This document shows positions 2,713-33,943 of a stretch of 34,262 nucleotides of DNA, piece after piece (the first letter of the stretch is position 1; every line of letters begins with the position of its first letter). The notes beneath the pieces are model-generated. The model was given only the letters and a program-made list of their open reading frames with translations. It made no database searches and had not been told where the DNA came from. The DNA comes from a virus: IMG/VR virus record IMGVR_UViG_3300028590_000062, positions 1-34,262 of that record. The stretch is one strand, 5' to 3'. Position numbers and translations under genes: made by a program.

Positions 2713-2825
2713 GCAGCTACAACTACACCAGCCATCGCTCCAGCACTGTCTACACTCAAAAGCAGCGCCGGATTATAGACGTAACCCATCGTAAGTTCCA
2801 CATAAGCCAACTGGTGCGGAAATGA
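2709..2825 (+). CDS. Very small basic protein (38 aa)
   Basis: A 38-aa ORF starting MSSYNYTSHRSST and ending HISQLVRK. Its ATG overlaps the previous stop and its stop overlaps the next ATG (ATGA at both ends). It fills a stretch that would otherwise be a 110-base gap in a gapless run. That exact fit is the main evidence that it is translated. It is basic, with no recognised domain. Confidence 0.55.
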   Translation: MSSYNYTSHRSSTVYTQKQRRIIDVTHRKFHISQLVRK

Positions 2826-3052
2826 GTGAATGGCAACCGATTGAAACGGCACCGCATGATGAGCCGTTCATAGGCGTGCGGATAGAAGAAGGAAGAGCGC
2901 CGTCATGGTGGCTAATTCGCGGCCTTCAGCTTCGATATGATGGCGAAGATGACCTACTTGGGAAGGGCTTTAGGTGGAATGCTATGGGCGGAATGTACAA
3001 CGTCACTCTGACGCATTGGCAACCACTTCCGGCCCCTCCAAAGCAAACCTAA
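2822..3052 (+). CDS. DUF551 family protein
   Basis: A 76-aa protein with the DUF551 hallmarks: WQPIETAP at the N-terminus and THWQPLPAPP at the C-terminus. The family is common in phages and prophages of Gram-negative bacteria and has no established function. A second member is encoded on the opposite arm (28975-29232). The start at 2822 overlaps the preceding stop. Confidence 0.85.
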   Translation: MSEWQPIETAPHDEPFIGVRIEEGRAPSWWLIRGLQLRYDGEDDLLGKGFRWNAMGGMYNVTLTHWQPLPAPPKQT

Positions 3053-3073
3053 TACAAGGATAAGGGGAATAGG

Positions 3074-3373
3074 ATGAGTGACCTGATTGAGATCAGCGAA
3101 CGGCTTCGTAAAATAAGCCAGCAAAAAGGCATCGGGTACAGGGAAGCGGTGTTCAGTGTGTATGCGCACCTAGAAAAAAACCAGATGTATGTAGACTTTG
3201 CTCAAGCATCCGATGCTTTAGAAGCCCGCGACAAGACCATTGCGGAGTTGGTGGGTATATTGCGAATGGTTAGCGACCTCTCAGCATTCAACCATGAATA
3301 TGAAAGCTACCTGGTGCCGTTGAATGCGATAGTTGCCGTTGACACCGCCCTATCCCAAGCAATCAAAGGATAA
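3074..3373 (+). CDS. Small hypothetical protein
   Basis: A 99-aa mostly helical protein. The middle (ASDALEARDKTIAELVGIL) looks like a short coiled coil of the kind found in Ead/Ea22-like phage proteins. A related stretch, ALEAKDRMIEQLCEAL, occurs in the gene at 5184-5579, so the two may be distant paralogues. AAGGGGAATAGG precedes ATG 3074. Function unknown. Confidence 0.7.
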   Translation: MSDLIEISERLRKISQQKGIGYREAVFSVYAHLEKNQMYVDFAQASDALEARDKTIAELVGILRMVSDLSAFNHEYESYLVPLNAIVAVDTALSQAIKG

Positions 3374-7084: not shown

Positions 7085-8382
7085 AGGTCCAAGTCAAAAT
7101 GCCTCCGAAGCTAATCCCGGTGTTTCTGGGAGAGGCGCGTTATCGTGGGGCATATGGCGGACGTGGCTCAGCCAAGACCAGATCATTCGCCAAGATGACA
7201 GCCGTTCGTGGCTATCAGTGGGGAATGGCAGGGCTGGAAGGACAAATCCTCTGCGCTCGTGAGTATATGAACTCGCTGGACGAATCCTCGCTGGAAGAGG
7301 TTAAGGCTGCAATCGCAAGCGAGCCATTCCTAGCGGAATATTACGAGGTCGGTGAAAAGTACGTTCGGTCCAACGATGGACGCATTCGATATGTGTTCTC
7401 CGGCCTGCGTCAGAACCTCGACAGCATCAAGTCCAAAGCCCGCATTCTTCTGTGTTGGGTTGATGAAGCCGAGCCAGTCTCAGAAGCGGCATGGCAAAAG
7501 CTGGTCCCGACTGTTCGTGAAGACAACTCCGAGATTTGGGTAACGTGGAACCCTGAGCGAAAGAACAGCGACACACACAAGCGCTTTCGTCTCGATCCGC
7601 CAAAAGATTCCAAAATCATCGAACTGAACTGGCAGGACAATCCATGGTTTCCAGAGGTGCTTAACCAGGAGCGCTTGGAAGACCTCAGGGCGCGTCCGGA
7701 CCAATACAACCATGTTTGGGAGGGCGAGTTCGTGACAGTCGTTGAAGGCGCCTATTACGCAAAGGCTTTGGTCGAAGCCAAATCAGCCGGTCGCATCTCC
7801 AACGTAGCCAAAGACCCGCTGATGACCGTAAGGGCCTTCTGGGATATCGGCGGCACTGGTGCAAAGGCCGATGCGTGTTCGATCTGGATTGCGCAGTTCA
7901 TCGGCAGGGAAATCCGTGTCCTCGACTATTATGAGGCTTCTGGACAACCTTTGGCTGTGCACGTTCAATGGATGCGTGATAATGGTTGGAGTAAAGCGCT
8001 TTGTGTGTTACCTCACGATGGCGCTACAAACGACAAGGTGTATGACGTATCTTACGACAGCGCCTTGAGAGATGCGGGGTTTGAAACAGAAGTGGTTCCG
8101 AACCAGGGCAAAGGTGCAGCCAAGATGCGGATTGAGTCCGCCCGCCGCCTATTTCCCAGCGTCTGGTTCAATGCCTCAACCACCGAAGCAGGCCGCGAAG
8201 CCCTCGGCTGGTATCATGAGAAGCGCTCCACAGATGACCGCAACATTGGTCTTGGCCCGGAGCACGATTGGTCAAGCCATGGCGCCGATGCGTTTGGCCT
8301 GATGTGCGTTGCGTATGAAGAGCCGCGTCAGAAGCGTGAAGGTAAGCGACCTGTCGCCGTTGCTGGGGGCTGGATGGGGTGA
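7081..8382 (+). CDS. terL: Terminase large subunit (ATPase and nuclease)
   Basis: A 433-aa DNA-packaging motor that pumps DNA through the portal and cuts the concatemer. The ATPase domain has Walker A GGRGSAKT (residues 26-33) and Walker B ILLCWVDEAE (122-131) with the catalytic Glu, then a coupling-type motif VTWNPE. The RNase H-like nuclease domain begins near residue 250 with FWDIGG (Asp255) and Asp264, and ends with WSSHGADAFG, which provides the last acidic residue. The type is Terminase_3/PBSX-like. GTG 7081 overlaps the terS stop; all key residues are present. Confidence 0.95.
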   Translation: MKVQVKMPPKLIPVFLGEARYRGAYGGRGSAKTRSFAKMTAVRGYQWGMAGLEGQILCAREYMNSLDESSLEEVKAAIASEPFLAEYYEVGEKYVRSNDGRIRYVFSGLRQNLDSIKSKARILLCWVDEAEPVSEAAWQKLVPTVREDNSEIWVTWNPERKNSDTHKRFRLDPPKDSKIIELNWQDNPWFPEVLNQERLEDLRARPDQYNHVWEGEFVTVVEGAYYAKALVEAKSAGRISNVAKDPLMTVRAFWDIGGTGAKADACSIWIAQFIGREIRVLDYYEASGQPLAVHVQWMRDNGWSKALCVLPHDGATNDKVYDVSYDSALRDAGFETEVVPNQGKGAAKMRIESARRLFPSVWFNASTTEAGREALGWYHEKRSTDDRNIGLGPEHDWSSHGADAFGLMCVAYEEPRQKREGKRPVAVAGGWMG

Positions 8383-8588
8383 TGCTTGATCCGGACGACA
8401 TAGAGCGTCTATTCACCACCCAATGGACGCGCCAGCTTGGCACAACGGTCGGGAATGGATATGAGCGCCTGAAGTTCATCCGCACCAAGGCTCGACAGCT
8501 AACGGATCACTTCAACACAACCGGCTGGCCAGAAACCGAAGAAGAGGTTCTGCCATACATTCAAAGGACGATTGAACGCTATGGATAA
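8382..8588 (+). CDS. Small hypothetical protein between terminase and portal
   Basis: A 68-aa protein. ATG 8382 (TGATG overlap with the terL stop) is preferred to GTG 8379. It is helical with TTGWPETEEEVLPYIQRT in its C-terminal half. No family is recognised. Position between terL and portal suggests a packaging or portal accessory role. It overlaps the portal start by 8 bases. Confidence 0.65.
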   Translation: MLDPDDIERLFTTQWTRQLGTTVGNGYERLKFIRTKARQLTDHFNTTGWPETEEEVLPYIQRTIERYG

Positions 8589-29989: not shown

Positions 29990-30309
29990 TTCTCCATCCA
30001 TCCCTTTTGCACGAGAACCATATTCGGCAGTAGTTCAACGATCTCATAATTACCGTTCGGAACGCACCACCACGGATGCCCCTTCCATCTCTTGGCGAAC
30101 TCTTCAGCGGCATCACTTGTCTCCCATGTTTTAACGTCTGCCGGGATCAGTCCCTCCTTAAAGCTGGCGCTCGTTGCCTCTACCCATCCTTCCCTCTCGA
30201 TGGTAGCCCAGAAGCGTTCTCCCTCTTTGGTCATAACTCTGTTGGGAACATCGGCCCCGGTTAGCGCTTCCTTGCTGTCCACGATGACGGCGTATCGGGT
30301 ATCACTCAT
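29986..30309 (-). CDS. Hypothetical protein
   Basis: A 107-aa protein. The second ATG (30309) is chosen over ATG 30315 because GGAG lies 7 bases before it. It has an alternating alpha/beta look: RYAVIVDSKEAL at the start, then a Trp-rich middle (FAKRWKGHPWWCVPNGNYE) and an end VLVQKGWMEK. No family is recognised. Stop overlaps the next start. Confidence 0.65.
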   Translation of the reverse strand: MSDTRYAVIVDSKEALTGADVPNRVMTKEGERFWATIEREGWVEATSASFKEGLIPADVKTWETSDAAEEFAKRWKGHPWWCVPNGNYEIVELLPNMVLVQKGWMEK

Positions 30310-30354
30310 TCCCATTCTCCTACTGTGATGTTGTGGTAGAGGGCTGGGGAATGG

Positions 30355-30720: not shown

Positions 30721-30742
30721 CTCTGTCTCTCTTCCTCTATCC

Positions 30743-30916
30743 CTAAGTGTGGGGATTGGTTTGTTTTGGCTGGGGAATGGAAGGTTTGCGACGATCAAGA
30801 TATTCCCGAATTGCCAGAACCGTCACGGCTGATACAGTCCGATTATCTCGCGCCGCCTCCAAAGCCAAATCATGCTTAAGATCGACTGGTAGGCGAAGGT
30901 CTAGGCGGGCTGTCAT
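30743..30916 (-). CDS. Arc-type ribbon-helix-helix protein (57 aa)
   Basis: A 57-aa protein fitting the ribbon-helix-helix fold: a short beta strand (ARLDLRLP), helix A (DLKHDLALEAARDN), turn and helix B (SAVTVLAIREYLDRR). This is the layout of Arc/CopG-type repressors, which bind DNA as dimers of dimers. The last 15 residues are a proline-rich tail (PSIPQPKQTNP). ATG 30916 overlaps the previous stop. It may regulate this arm; operator not known. Confidence 0.75.
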   Translation of the reverse strand: MTARLDLRLPVDLKHDLALEAARDNRTVSAVTVLAIREYLDRRKPSIPQPKQTNPHT

Positions 30917-31272
30917 TGAGATTCCAGAGCGTCAAGAGCCTTGAAAACGTGCTCTTTAACATCGTTCTCTTCGCCATACGTGCCCTTAGTCAGGCGGGCG
31001 CGCAGAACATCGGCCTCGACCTCTTCAGGCTTCCACTGGCCCTCAAGGCCATAGCACGAGCAATGCGATCCATGCACCTCGTACAGCCTGCCTCCGCGCT
31101 CGAACAAAACAAAGGCATCGCCTTCGTAACAAGCTTGGGTATAGGAGGCTACTAGAATGTTGGCCCCATCCAGGTACGAAGCGTTGATCGCAAACTCACC
31201 AACTACGGCGTCCTTTCCGATCTGGTTTTTGTAGTTCGCCTTAGCAAAATCGTTCAGGTAAATCGGGTCCAT
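30913..31272 (-). CDS. Hypothetical protein with HGSHCSCYG motif
   Basis: A 119-aa protein. ATG 31272 is preferred over ATG 31284 because GGAG lies 7 bases before it. The motif EVHGSHCSCYGLEGQW is one I associate with a small phage protein family of unknown function; the closely spaced His and Cys could bind metal. The protein looks alpha/beta. It begins a new - strand unit after the 588-base stretch at 31273-31860. Confidence 0.7.
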   Translation of the reverse strand: MDPIYLNDFAKANYKNQIGKDAVVGEFAINASYLDGANILVASYTQACYEGDAFVLFERGGRLYEVHGSHCSCYGLEGQWKPEEVEADVLRARLTKGTYGEENDVKEHVFKALDALESQ

Positions 31273-31492
31273 GATTATCTCCATTGATACCGTACAATGT
31301 CACACACAGGCCCTTAATACAAGCGGTTATGTTGCATGGGATTATGACAAAAGGAAAAGGCCCCGCCTTGTGAGCGAAGCCTTGACTTTAGAGCGGTATT
31401 TCCCTCATTATGAGGCTGTCGGCACACGATTTACGGTCGTTACCGACTACCACCGGTTCCTTGGCGGGATTTCCACCGGTAGCGCTTACTGA
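31271..31492 (+). CDS. Possible small protein on the opposite strand
   Basis: A 73-aa + strand ORF. It has no ribosome binding site before ATG 31271, which overlaps the start of the opposite gene head to head. The sequence looks moderately protein-like (ALTLERYFPHYEAVGTRF then TVVTDYHRFLGG), and the motif that marks gene ends elsewhere occurs after it in the same direction (31555-31567). I count it as an uncertain gene. Confidence 0.3.
   Translation: MIISIDTVQCHTQALNTSGYVAWDYDKRKRPRLVSEALTLERYFPHYEAVGTRFTVVTDYHRFLGGISTGSAY
31382..31411 (+). promoter_or_regulatory. Possible + strand promoter
   Basis: TTGACT (31382-31387, 5 of 6) and CATTAT (31406-31411, 4 of 6) are separated by 18 bases. It would transcribe rightwards through the inverted repeat at 31490-31519 and the structured region at 31649-31778, against the neighbouring genes. 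Confidence 0.35.
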
Positions 31493-31519
31493 AACTAGCA
31501 TTCGATCTCGAAGGTTTCA
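31490..31519. repeat. Inverted repeat (30 bp)
   Basis: TGAAAC (31490-31495) and GTTTCA (31514-31519) flank an inner inverted repeat TTCG/CGAA (31501-31504 and 31509-31512). It could be an operator for a dimeric regulator or an RNA hairpin. The direct repeat CCACCGGT (31450-31457, 31473-31480) lies just to the left. Confidence 0.4.
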
Positions 31520-31648
31520 AGTGCGTTAGAAAAGTCCCCCAACGGGTTCGCTAGCTCCCTCCAAAGCAAGCAAAAACAAATCTGCGGGCAATGGTTCTCT
31601 TTCTATCCCGTGACCTTGGCGCGAGAAATCGTGTAGGCGCAAAAGCTG

Positions 31649-31778
31649 GGTATGGGGATAAGCTCCTGTACTTGGGGTTCAGGGCCTAAATGCTGGACCG
31701 GGGACTTGTGAATGTACGCTGCCGTAAGGCACCTGTTAGCTACAGGCTTGGTTGATTGGGGATAGCCCGGTCCATACC
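31649..31778 (+). ncRNA. Candidate structured RNA with nested stems
   Basis: Four perfect stems nest in one orientation. The outermost is GGTAT (31649-31653) with ATACC (31774-31778), extendable by GG/CC at the cost of the next stem. Next is GGACCGGG (31695-31702) with CCCGGTCC (31766-31773). Inside are two abutting hairpins: TGCC-GTAA-GGCA (31720-31731), whose loop is a GNRA-type tetraloop when read on the + strand, and CCTGT-TAGCT-ACAGG (31732-31746). The region holds no convincing ORF. It has no T tract, tRNA T-loop or known ribozyme core that I recognise. An A-rich Shine-Dalgarno (AAGGAG 31788-31793) and a 21-codon ORF (31799-31864) follow. Confidence 0.4.
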
Positions 31779-31860
31779 AAGGGGGAAAAGGAGAAGCTAT
31801 GCCTTCATTCCCCAGCCCCTACTCTCCCAACACCCAACCCAGCAGTAGCAATAGACACTG

Positions 31861-32160
31861 TTAGGATGCTACCAGCCTCAATCCATTCCCAAGATCGAGA
31901 TTGTCCACATCCAGAGCCGCACGAGCCATGTTGATGACATTCTGGTGCTGACCTATCTGGGTATTGATTGAGGCCATTTCCTGAGCCTCTGCGGCCTCTA
32001 GACGGGCCTTCTCTCGGGCATAGAACTCCTCCCTCGTTTTCTTCTGTCCCTCTAGCCTCTGACGCTCTGAAACGGCCTGATCGTGACGGCTGGTGAGGAA
32101 GTTGCCAAACTCAGTATCGGGCGGCACGGCTGGTTCTGTAACTGGTTTGCGAGTTGTCAT
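31861..32160 (-). CDS. Coiled-coil hypothetical protein
   Basis: A 99-aa protein starting at ATG 32160, with AGAGGAATTGAG upstream; the longer frame to 32253 overlaps gcrA. Residues about 28-85 form a charged coiled coil (SERQRLEGQKKTREEFYARE onward). The end DLGNGLRLVAS is hydrophobic. No family is recognised. It is the last gene before the 588-base stretch and may be transcribed from a separate promoter at 32185-32210. Confidence 0.65.
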   Translation of the reverse strand: MTTRKPVTEPAVPPDTEFGNFLTSRHDQAVSERQRLEGQKKTREEFYAREKARLEAAEAQEMASINTQIGQHQNVINMARAALDVDNLDLGNGLRLVAS

Positions 32161-32184
32161 CTCAATTCCTCTCATATGTATCGA

Positions 32185-32213: not shown

Positions 32214-32789
32214 TCACGTGCGCGGGTGGGATAGGTGGTTGTGAGTCTGGCAATACCTGCCATCGGCATCGACAGGCAGGGCACAGAAGTGGTAAGGTGA
32301 ATCAATCCCAACTGGCCAAGAGCATTGACCCTTTTGCAGGTCCACAAGGCTAACAGGCTGACTTCCCTCTAAAGCCTCCCAAGCCTTAGAGCGCTGGAAC
32401 CGATAGTCGGGCTTCATGCTAGGCCCATCAATCGAAGCCCTGCGTTCAACTACCTTCTCAATCACAACATAAGGCTTTGGAGGTTTACGCTTGCGAACTG
32501 GTCCAGATGATTTAGAGCGGCTGAGTGACCCATCCATTTCCCTATGCCTCTTGGCTTTGCTTTCAGTGCGTTCCTTTAGTCTGCGAGCCCTTTCGGTAGC
32601 TCTGTAGTAAGCATGTCCATTCGGATGAGCACCTAGATTGAGACGATTGGCCTTTCCGATGACCGCGTTCTTCTTCCCTGGTATTCCGAGTGCATCCGCT
32701 ATTTGCAGTGCCGAGTATCCAATGGCCCACATTTCCCTCAGCTTGTCGATGCGTCCCGGAGATTCCCAGTCTACGATCTTAGGGTTCAT
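32214..32789 (-). CDS. gcrA: GcrA-family cell-cycle regulator
   Basis: A 191-aa protein of the GcrA family. Residues 7-52 hold the family DNA-binding part: a DWESPGRIDKLREMW start, GYSALQIADALGI, then NAVIGKANRLNL. The C-terminal end has QCSWPVG, FCALPV and GRYCQTH, the conserved Cys/His region of the family. GcrA in alphaproteobacteria binds sigma70 RNA polymerase and activates promoters with methylated GANTC; a phage copy may redirect host or phage transcription. ATG 32789 (AGAGAGGA upstream) is chosen over an extended frame. The middle 60-130 is basic and disordered. Confidence 0.85.
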   Translation of the reverse strand: MNPKIVDWESPGRIDKLREMWAIGYSALQIADALGIPGKKNAVIGKANRLNLGAHPNGHAYYRATERARRLKERTESKAKRHREMDGSLSRSKSSGPVRKRKPPKPYVVIEKVVERRASIDGPSMKPDYRFQRSKAWEALEGSQPVSLVDLQKGQCSWPVGIDSPYHFCALPVDADGRYCQTHNHLSHPRT

Positions 32790-33178
32790 TCCTCTCTCTT
32801 CCTCCATCCTCTGGACTGTTTGGGGAAGGGCCTTGAGGCCCACTTGTGATCCTTTGGCTTAGGAATGGGGTTCTTAGTCCGCCTCCTCGTCTCTGGATCA
32901 AGATTGCGACGAATTCTTTTGGCCTTAGCCGCCTTGGGTGTATCGACCTTACGTGTTTTCCAAGAATGGCACAGAGGGCAGACAGCGCGGCAATTCTCTA
33001 GGCTGTTATCTCCGCCCTCACTGGCTAAGATGAAATGATCGTACTCCACCTTCACCAGTTTGGCCCCACACCGATCATCCCAAGGTCGGTTGTAAAAAGG
33101 CCCAGATGCCTCACAAAGCCCTTCGGAGCGCTCTAGGGCCAGCCTCTTGGTTTTCTGGGTGAACTCCTTACGGGGCAA
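32786..33178 (-). CDS. HNH endonuclease-type protein
   Basis: A 130-aa protein starting at TTG 33178 (AGGTGG about 6 bases before it). Residues about 41-70 carry the HNH fold motif: VEYDHFILASEGGDNSLENC followed by CPLCHSW, with a Cys pair (CEASG..., CGAK) before it. This is the compact HNH layout of phage nucleases near packaging or recombination genes. The C-terminus is basic with PIPKPK. It overlaps both neighbours, so it is well embedded in the operon. Activity unknown. Confidence 0.8.
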   Translation of the reverse strand: MPRKEFTQKTKRLALERSEGLCEASGPFYNRPWDDRCGAKLVKVEYDHFILASEGGDNSLENCRAVCPLCHSWKTRKVDTPKAAKAKRIRRNLDPETRRRTKNPIPKPKDHKWASRPFPKQSRGWRKREE

Positions 33179-33515
33179 TCTCCACCACCTCTACGCCCGC
33201 CCTACGGGCTTTGCGGACCATATCAGCAGTTCCGCGACCTCCGGGAAAGGCAATGACCAGATCGGGCTTGCCTTCCTCCAGCATCCGCTTGTTGCGAGCA
33301 GGGCCAGCGAACGCGCCTTGGTTTTCCCAATCGGCCTGAAACTCCAAATCCGGAACACCATTCAGACACGCCCAGCCATGGGCCAAATCGTCAGCCCCAT
33401 TAGCCCCGCCCTGAATAATTAGACTGATGCCCATGCTATCGTGCAGCTTATTCATCACCACGCCAAAGCGGTCGGCATCTCGGTAATTTCTACCGCCGCA
33501 AACAAGAACCCTCAT
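33168..33515 (-). CDS. SLOG/YspA-like protein (DUF2493)
   Basis: A 115-aa Rossmann-like protein. Motifs: RVLVCGGRNYRD at residues 2-13, IIQGGANGADDLA at 33-45, FAGPARNKRML at 69-79 and IAFPGGRGTADMV at 88-100. These match the YspA/SLOG family (related to DprA/LOG proteins), which is thought to bind nucleotides. No specific phage role is established. Start ATG 33515 overlaps the NinB stop; ribosome binding site GGAGAGG. Confidence 0.85.
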   Translation of the reverse strand: MRVLVCGGRNYRDADRFGVVMNKLHDSMGISLIIQGGANGADDLAHGWACLNGVPDLEFQADWENQGAFAGPARNKRMLEEGKPDLVIAFPGGRGTADMVRKARRAGVEVVEIAP

Positions 33516-33943
33516 TTCATCCTCTCCAGAAATTCGCCAAACCCCGCTGCTTCAGTCTCTCGCAACTCCACGCCATTTGCCACACAGAACGCAATCGTGT
33601 ATTCAATGAGGGACGTGGCGCGGGACTTGTTCATGCGGGATGTGCTTTCCCGGATGGAGACAAATTCACCCTCCAATCCTGGGATAACTTCACCGCCATT
33701 GCTGGTTGCTACGGAGTGAGCGCTGACCACAAGCGCCTTCCACTCCCCAGCATTACGAACCTTCCCCGCCCACTTCATTCCCGATTTGGCTAGATCGCCA
33801 CACAGAGAATGAAACAACCGGTTCTGTGGCATTGAGCGCTTAGGCTCCGAGATATCCACGATCCAATCTGCTGGCGCGTTCGATACCGCAGCAATCGCAT
33901 TGGAACGAATAAGCGTAGACCTCAAAACGAACGTCTGGGTCAT
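33512..33943 (-). CDS. ninB: NinB recombination protein
   Basis: A 143-aa protein of the NinB (lambda Orf) family, a recombination mediator that binds single-stranded DNA and replaces host RecFOR. Family features: EPKRSMPQNRLFHSLCGDLA, KWAGK, WKALVVSAHSVA, and PGLEGEFVSIRESTSRMNKS followed by TSLIEYTIAFC. Length is as in lambda (146 aa). The stop overlaps the SLOG gene (ATGA). The start at 33943 overlaps the previous gene. Confidence 0.92.
   Translation of the reverse strand: MTQTFVLRSTLIRSNAIAAVSNAPADWIVDISEPKRSMPQNRLFHSLCGDLAKSGMKWAGKVRNAGEWKALVVSAHSVATSNGGEVIPGLEGEFVSIRESTSRMNKSRATSLIEYTIAFCVANGVELRETEAAGFGEFLERMK

Follow-up and report, generated by a model that had tools for sequence, protein, structure and literature searches.

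A probable stand-alone structured RNA in a gene-free gap of a phage genome

Genomic setting

The window, i.e. the whole stretch of DNA analysed here, represents a single IMG/VR virus record of 34,262 bases, in which the portal, scaffold and coat genes are located on the + strand and a leftward gene set lies further to the right (Table 1). The host of this phage probably belongs to the alphaproteobacteria; relatives of the terminase in named genomes are found mostly in Alphaproteobacteria. Within the leftward set, the GcrA-like gene at 32214-32843 (-) matches Pfam GcrA with an E value of 2.5e-17 and is related to a cell-cycle regulator of alphaproteobacteria. The product of the gene at 30913-31284 (-) is widespread in phages (113 records) and matches PHROG 21421, which carries the label 'integrase'; as this product comprises 123 aa and has no Pfam match, the label looks like a misannotation. 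In the NinB gene (33512-33943), 130-nt windows at 33640-33830 have clearly better folds than shuffled sequences on either strand, with z values reaching -4.6 on the - strand and -3.8 on the + strand. The right arm also contains three exact copies of CATTCCCCAGCC, at 30342-30353 (-), 30768-30779 (-) and 31806-31817 (+), and with one mismatch allowed this motif has five matches in the window, compared with 0.26 expected.

The largest gene-free gap of the window, 31285-31860, is non-coding in all six frames according to a codon model that scores most neighbouring genes as positive in one frame. An initial annotation, made from the sequence of the window, had placed a candidate structured RNA in the largest gene-free stretch, and its site does lie within this gap.

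Table 1. Coordinates of the features in and around the gene-free gap of the window
Feature	Position	Strand	Remarks
Leftward gene set	right of ~29.7 kb	-	members include NinB, a YspA-related SLOG protein, an HNH nuclease and a GcrA-like protein
Fast-evolving protein of the leftward set	end at 31861	-	next protein starts 31284
Intrinsic-terminator-like hairpin of the leftward operon	31351..31383	-	separate from the RNA
Conserved non-coding RNA region	31563..31801	+	detectable homology with G487, from DNA similarity
Core fold, multi-branched RNA	31596..31803	+	MFE -82.3
P1 outer stem	31596..31602 / 31788-31794, also 31606-31608 / 31782-31784	+	from the window MFE fold
P2 hairpin CCT-TGG-CGCGA-GAAA-TCGTG-T-AGG	31614..31637	+	GAAA tetraloop in both phages
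P3 hairpin, 12 bp	31646-31657 / 31664-31675	+	strongest helix; in single-sequence folds of both phages
P4 hairpin, 7 bp, GGTTCAG/CTGGACC	31676..31699	+	conserved loop GGCCTAAATG
P6 hairpin TGCC-GTAA-GGCA	31720..31731	+	GNRA loop in the window, TTCG loop in G487
P7 hairpin CCTGT-TAGCT-ACAGG	31732..31746	+	G487 version CTGCT-TAGTC-AGCAG
P8 hairpin CTTGGT/ACCAAG	31747..31781	+	inner extension GATTGGG/CCCGGTC in the window only
Purine-rich 3' tail GGGGAAAAGGAG plus CTATG (SD-like sequence, start codon)	31782..31801	+	near identical in G487
Short ORF MPSFPSPYSPNTQPSSSNRHC	31799..31864	+	probably not a gene

A homologue in a second phage

Searching the records of coat-protein relatives by DNA similarity yielded a single match, the record IMGVR_UViG_2844454524_000003 (G487), a distantly related phage which carries a homologue of the window RNA. 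Positions 31563-31754 of the window align with G487 8242-8429 (about 190 nt, 71% identical, E 2e-18), with an additional 18-nt piece, and the reverse query with the G487 sequence (nhmmer/blastn) matches window 31562-31801. In both phages the homology stops at an SD-like sequence followed by an ATG (AAGGAG/AAGGGA, CTATG; 31788-31801 in the window).

Beyond the RNA region, DNA-level matches between the two phages are confined to three stretches of structural genes. The position of the RNA also differs, as in G487 it precedes the structural genes and has a repressor-like HTH gene nearby, and in the window it follows the structural genes. Both its sequence and its structure have been preserved amid early genes that have no detectable similarity at the DNA level; this suggests that its function may be of use to unrelated early regions. 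The mismatches between the two sequences lack 3-periodicity, the alignment gaps measure 1, 2, 3, 7 and 17 nt, and stops occur in all six frames of 31563-31801; together with the result of the codon model, this indicates that the RNA is non-coding.

Fold and covariation

Within limits set by the homology with G487 (31596-31803), the + strand folds better than shuffled sequences (z -2.51, 2 of 200 shuffles as good). The limits proposed initially, 31649-31778, proved wrong, since there the + fold is no better than shuffles (z -0.57, 65 of 200 as good); the comparison with shuffles that the initial annotation had suggested as a check is thus negative at its own limits and positive at the homology-based ones.

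Forty of the 41 modelled pairs, which were drawn from P1, P3, P4, P6, P7 and P8 in the alignment of the window with G487, hold in both sequences. Twelve pairs differ between the phages; 11 of these still pair, six of them via double changes. As a control, sliding the partners by 1-3 columns left 0-1 double changes. Under random substitution on the same sides, about 5.6 of the 12 changed pairs would be expected to be kept, and 11 would be reached with a probability of 0.0016, a value that is optimistic because one alignment served for both the choice of helices and the counting of changes.

P3, which had been overlooked initially although at 31646-31675 it forms the strongest helix, shows three double and three one-sided changes with every pair kept, and P7 shows three double compensatory changes and is present in the separate folds of both phages. 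P4 has two one-sided changes, pairing being kept in both (probability 0.85 and 0.95), and the arrangement of P3 and P4 in series was recovered in independent single-sequence folds of both phages. The pairing probability of P2 is 0.99 in the window and 0.53 in G487; that of P6, which is formed in the window fold and has lost its outermost pair in G487, is 1.0 and 0.28, respectively. P1 is invariant in the two phages, hence untested by covariation, and is absent from the single-sequence core fold of G487; since the comparative evidence consists of two sequences only, both P1 and P8 rest on invariant pairs. Comparison of the two phages shows in this way a predicted multi-branched + strand RNA in which P2, P3, P4, P6 and P7 are kept.

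All sequence segments named in the initial annotation are present, i.e. GGACCGGG at 31695-31702 and CCCGGTCC at 31766-31773, TGCC-GTAA-GGCA, CCTGT-TAGCT-ACAGG, GGTATGG at 31649-31655 and CCATACC at 31772-31778, as well as AAGGAG followed by ATG at 31799. The two abutting hairpins described there are the conserved P6 and P7. The 8-bp stem GGACCGGG/CCCGGTCC that was thought to enclose them is not conserved and has a pairing probability of 0.04 in the window; its GGACC pairs inside P4 instead, and the CCCGGTCC arm belongs to the inner extension of P8, a stretch that lacks its 17-nt core in G487. The outermost pairing GGTATGG/CCATACC has a probability of 0.00 in the window, and the proposed competition between it and the 8-bp stem is unsupported.

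Alternative pairing of the 3' segment

The competition that is conserved is that of CCTTGG and CTTGGT for ACCAAGG. ACCAAGG (31776-31782) is complementary to CTTGGT (31747-31752), forming P8, and, as CCAAGG (31777-31782), to CCTTGG (31614-31619), and all three segments are invariant between the window and G487. P8 is predicted with a probability of 0.95 in the window and 0.06 in G487, where the 17-nt gap removes most of the inner extension; for the pairing CCTTGG/CCAAGG the values are reversed (0.04 in the window, 0.92 in G487). The two CUUGG copies (31615-31619 and 31747-31751) might compete for the single CCAAG (31777-31781), and the 3' tail might be held in two different ways, or one of the two pairings may be the actual helix. 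It is conceivable, albeit quite unlikely, that this represents a new family of two-state phage RNAs in which a pair of CUUGG segments and one CCAAG switch the purine-rich tail and thereby control phage development; if true, such control could concern, for example, the choice between lysis and lysogeny or the activity of the leftward operon at the level of expression.

Strand assignment

The consensus fold over 31562-31803 differs from column shuffles by z -7.19 on the + strand and z -2.52 on the - strand. Where only one side of a pair has changed in P3 or P4, the result is a wobble change on the + strand and an A-C mismatch on the - strand, and the tetraloops GAAA, GUAA and UUCG exist on the + strand only, with a swap in P6 from GUAA in the window to UUCG in G487. 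The consensus z, the G-U wobbles, the tetraloop swap and the + strand fold at 31596-31803 assign the RNA to the + strand, and the structured RNA proposed initially is in this respect supported by the G487 homologue and its compensatory changes.

A structured transcript on the - strand, such as a 3' untranslated region of the leftward operon reaching up to the terminator at 31383-31351, appears very improbable. The neighbouring genes are all on the - strand, the better z at the initial limits is that of the - strand (-2.45), and in both phages a terminator-like hairpin on the - strand is found about 180 nt beyond the RNA. However, the - strand retains canonical pairing for just 32 and 34 of the 41 pairs, and the observed changes are of the kind that keep G-U on the + strand and break pairing on the - strand. 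We had considered a minus-strand RNA on account of neighbour gene orientation and fold z, and dropped this hypothesis once the G487 homologue was found. Even less probable is a conserved DNA element, such as a replication origin or an array of binding sites, rather than an RNA. Such an element would agree with the non-coding nature of the region and its location near replication and recombination genes (NinB, HNH), but the strand-specific wobble pairs, double changes and tetraloop swaps point to RNA and not to duplex DNA.

Proposed nature and function

We propose that the product of the conserved region is probably a non-coding structured RNA, read from the + strand and about 200-240 nt long, which stands alone and represents an undescribed family of phage regulatory RNAs; in the two sequences the region is non-coding and compensatory changes keep the fold. 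Its transcription would run rightward, opposing the leftward operon. The working part is probably the folded RNA with its conserved unpaired stretches, namely CUUUCUAUCC, the P4 loop GCCUnAAUG, UUAG and the tail GGGGGAAAAGG, which would pair with a target RNA or bind a protein. The main gaps in this argument are the small number of members (two) and the expression signals, as no + strand terminator was found for the RNA and no convincing + strand promoter, a single 9/12 match at 31382-31411 being at about shuffle level.

The end of the homology at an SD-like sequence and ATG in both phages raises the question whether the RNA is a cis-acting leader, similar to a riboswitch or attenuator, that controls translation from the ATG at 31799. 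In such a leader, the ribosome-binding site would be masked or freed through the pairing of the AAGGAG region in P1 and the competition of the CUUGG copies. The SD-like sequence is indeed located inside the 3' strand of P1, and ACCAAGG has two mutually exclusive conserved pairings; what the RNA has in common with known cis-regulatory leaders is a conserved fold that has alternative pairings and leads up to an SD-like sequence and ATG. It differs from them in that the downstream gene is not conserved: the ORFs following the ATG comprise 21 and 24 codons in the window and G487 and are unrelated, no + strand gene with a coding signal was detected downstream of the RNA in either phage, and the window ORF is antisense to a stretch that represents - strand protein sequence in the related locus L028 (see below). 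We therefore consider a leader unlikely. The initial annotation had suggested 'a small RNA or leader switch', of which the small RNA is the better half.

Location opposite a leftward gene is a feature shared with the lambda OOP RNA, which is likewise phage-encoded, lies opposite an early operon and points towards the 3' end of an oppositely oriented gene. OOP itself is short, forms a simple hairpin and overlaps with its target. By analogy, an unstructured + strand extension of the window RNA might overlap the 3' end of a leftward gene and promote its decay, the target being the gene at 31861-32161 in the window and the repressor-like gene, which is further off, in G487. In both phages the RNA faces the 3' end of a - strand gene, and a terminator before that gene was not seen. 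However, the facing genes are unrelated between the two phages, and the window RNA has at least five hairpins, a conserved part located outside genes and no visible terminator; antisense pairing needs no such heavily folded structure. We regard this explanation as distinctly improbable, and a stand-alone regulatory RNA, which we rank above both the cis-acting leader and the OOP-like antisense RNA, as the most likely reading. Regulatory antisense RNAs of phages have been reviewed (PMC12197685), and OOP is treated in PMC5869508.

Comparison with known RNA families

The initial impression that the RNA does not resemble tRNA or tmRNA was confirmed, as ARAGORN detected no tRNA or tmRNA genes in the window and Rfam gave no match. 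With Rfam 15, the whole window has no match at gathering scores, and at relaxed thresholds the regions of the window and of G487 gave chance-level matches only. Among phages or prophages, GOLLD and ROOL are also found. With these RNAs and OLE the window RNA shares a multi-branched, phage-borne, non-coding structure of unknown function, but its length of about 200-240 nt contrasts with roughly 600 nt or more, and no Rfam model for GOLLD, ROOL or OLE matched the window or G487 regions. GOLLD, ROOL and OLE have been described as large structured RNAs of phages and bacteria (PMC12286853).

A local string, CUAAAUGCUGGACCGGGGA, resembles the P7/P3 strand of the Tetrahymena group I intron. We rejected a group I intron, as its helices would compete with the covarying P4 and P7, no match to Rfam Intron_gpI was obtained and the RNA is located between genes. 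With respect to the context of a retron or of an IscB or TnpB guide RNA, the large ORFs identified are structural or lysis genes, some large ORFs have no family match, and the nearest HNH gene encodes 130 aa only. Beyond a few coliphage examples, phage non-coding RNAs are poorly catalogued; the RNA described here shows real covariation, can be assigned to one strand and is well delimited, and can thus be cloned, probed and deleted.

Searches for further members

No further member was revealed in Rfam or by DNA searches of 50,697 phage records and 72,556 plasmids, and there was no relevant match in 17 named genomes or in 397 genomes sampled from a single alphaproteobacterial order, which were searched with each of two queries. 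The covariance model of the window and G487 pair scored 237 and 208 bits on its own pair and did not exceed about 14 bits anywhere else in 2.7 Mb of related loci; even a model based on two sequences thus sets the RNA cleanly apart from the rest of the sequence searched. Applied to 396 genomes from one family, 385 genomes of the class and about 96 phage records, this model found G487 only. As the genome samples contained no known positive, these genome negatives are weak. A search with the pattern TAGGGGCTNRGGAATGA returned three other contigs with no visible relation, and the gene-free stretches of other relatives were rejected, consisting of tRNA-like fragments and unrelated sequence.

The closest relative is the record G001, whose locus L028 was found through the GcrA-like gene. 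G001 is collinear with the window in most genes, yet it does not contain the RNA (cmsearch finds nothing), which marks the RNA as an accessory element. We had considered L028 as a homologue because of a gene-free stretch of similar length in the same slot, a weak alignment and two shared copies of CGCCAAGG, and rejected it as the sequence differs: nhmmer with the window sequence gave only a 63-nt coding-derived match in L028, and a pattern search based on CGCCAAGG returned only L028 itself and matches that are coding by context.

The gene-free stretch of L028 in the same slot (2745-3290, about 540 nt) is non-coding by the codon model, has a better fold than shuffled sequences (z -2.6 and -2.0 on the two strands) and contains CCTTGGCG twice on the strand matching the RNA; it may represent a different RNA, or a relative diverged past recognition. 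Window 31802-31864 and L028 2689-2751 are 86% identical over 63 bp. In L028 these 63 bp encode, in frame, the C-terminus of the gene that lies upstream of the gap; in the window they are located just beyond the stop of the gene 31861-32161, in another frame, so that this window gene looks frameshifted. The window and G001 also share islands of 45-121 bp with 96-100% identity (2709-2829, 3032-3090, 3210-3254, 30303-30350 and 30726-30780), separated by diverged sequence; these islands may represent conserved promoters or sequences at recombination boundaries.
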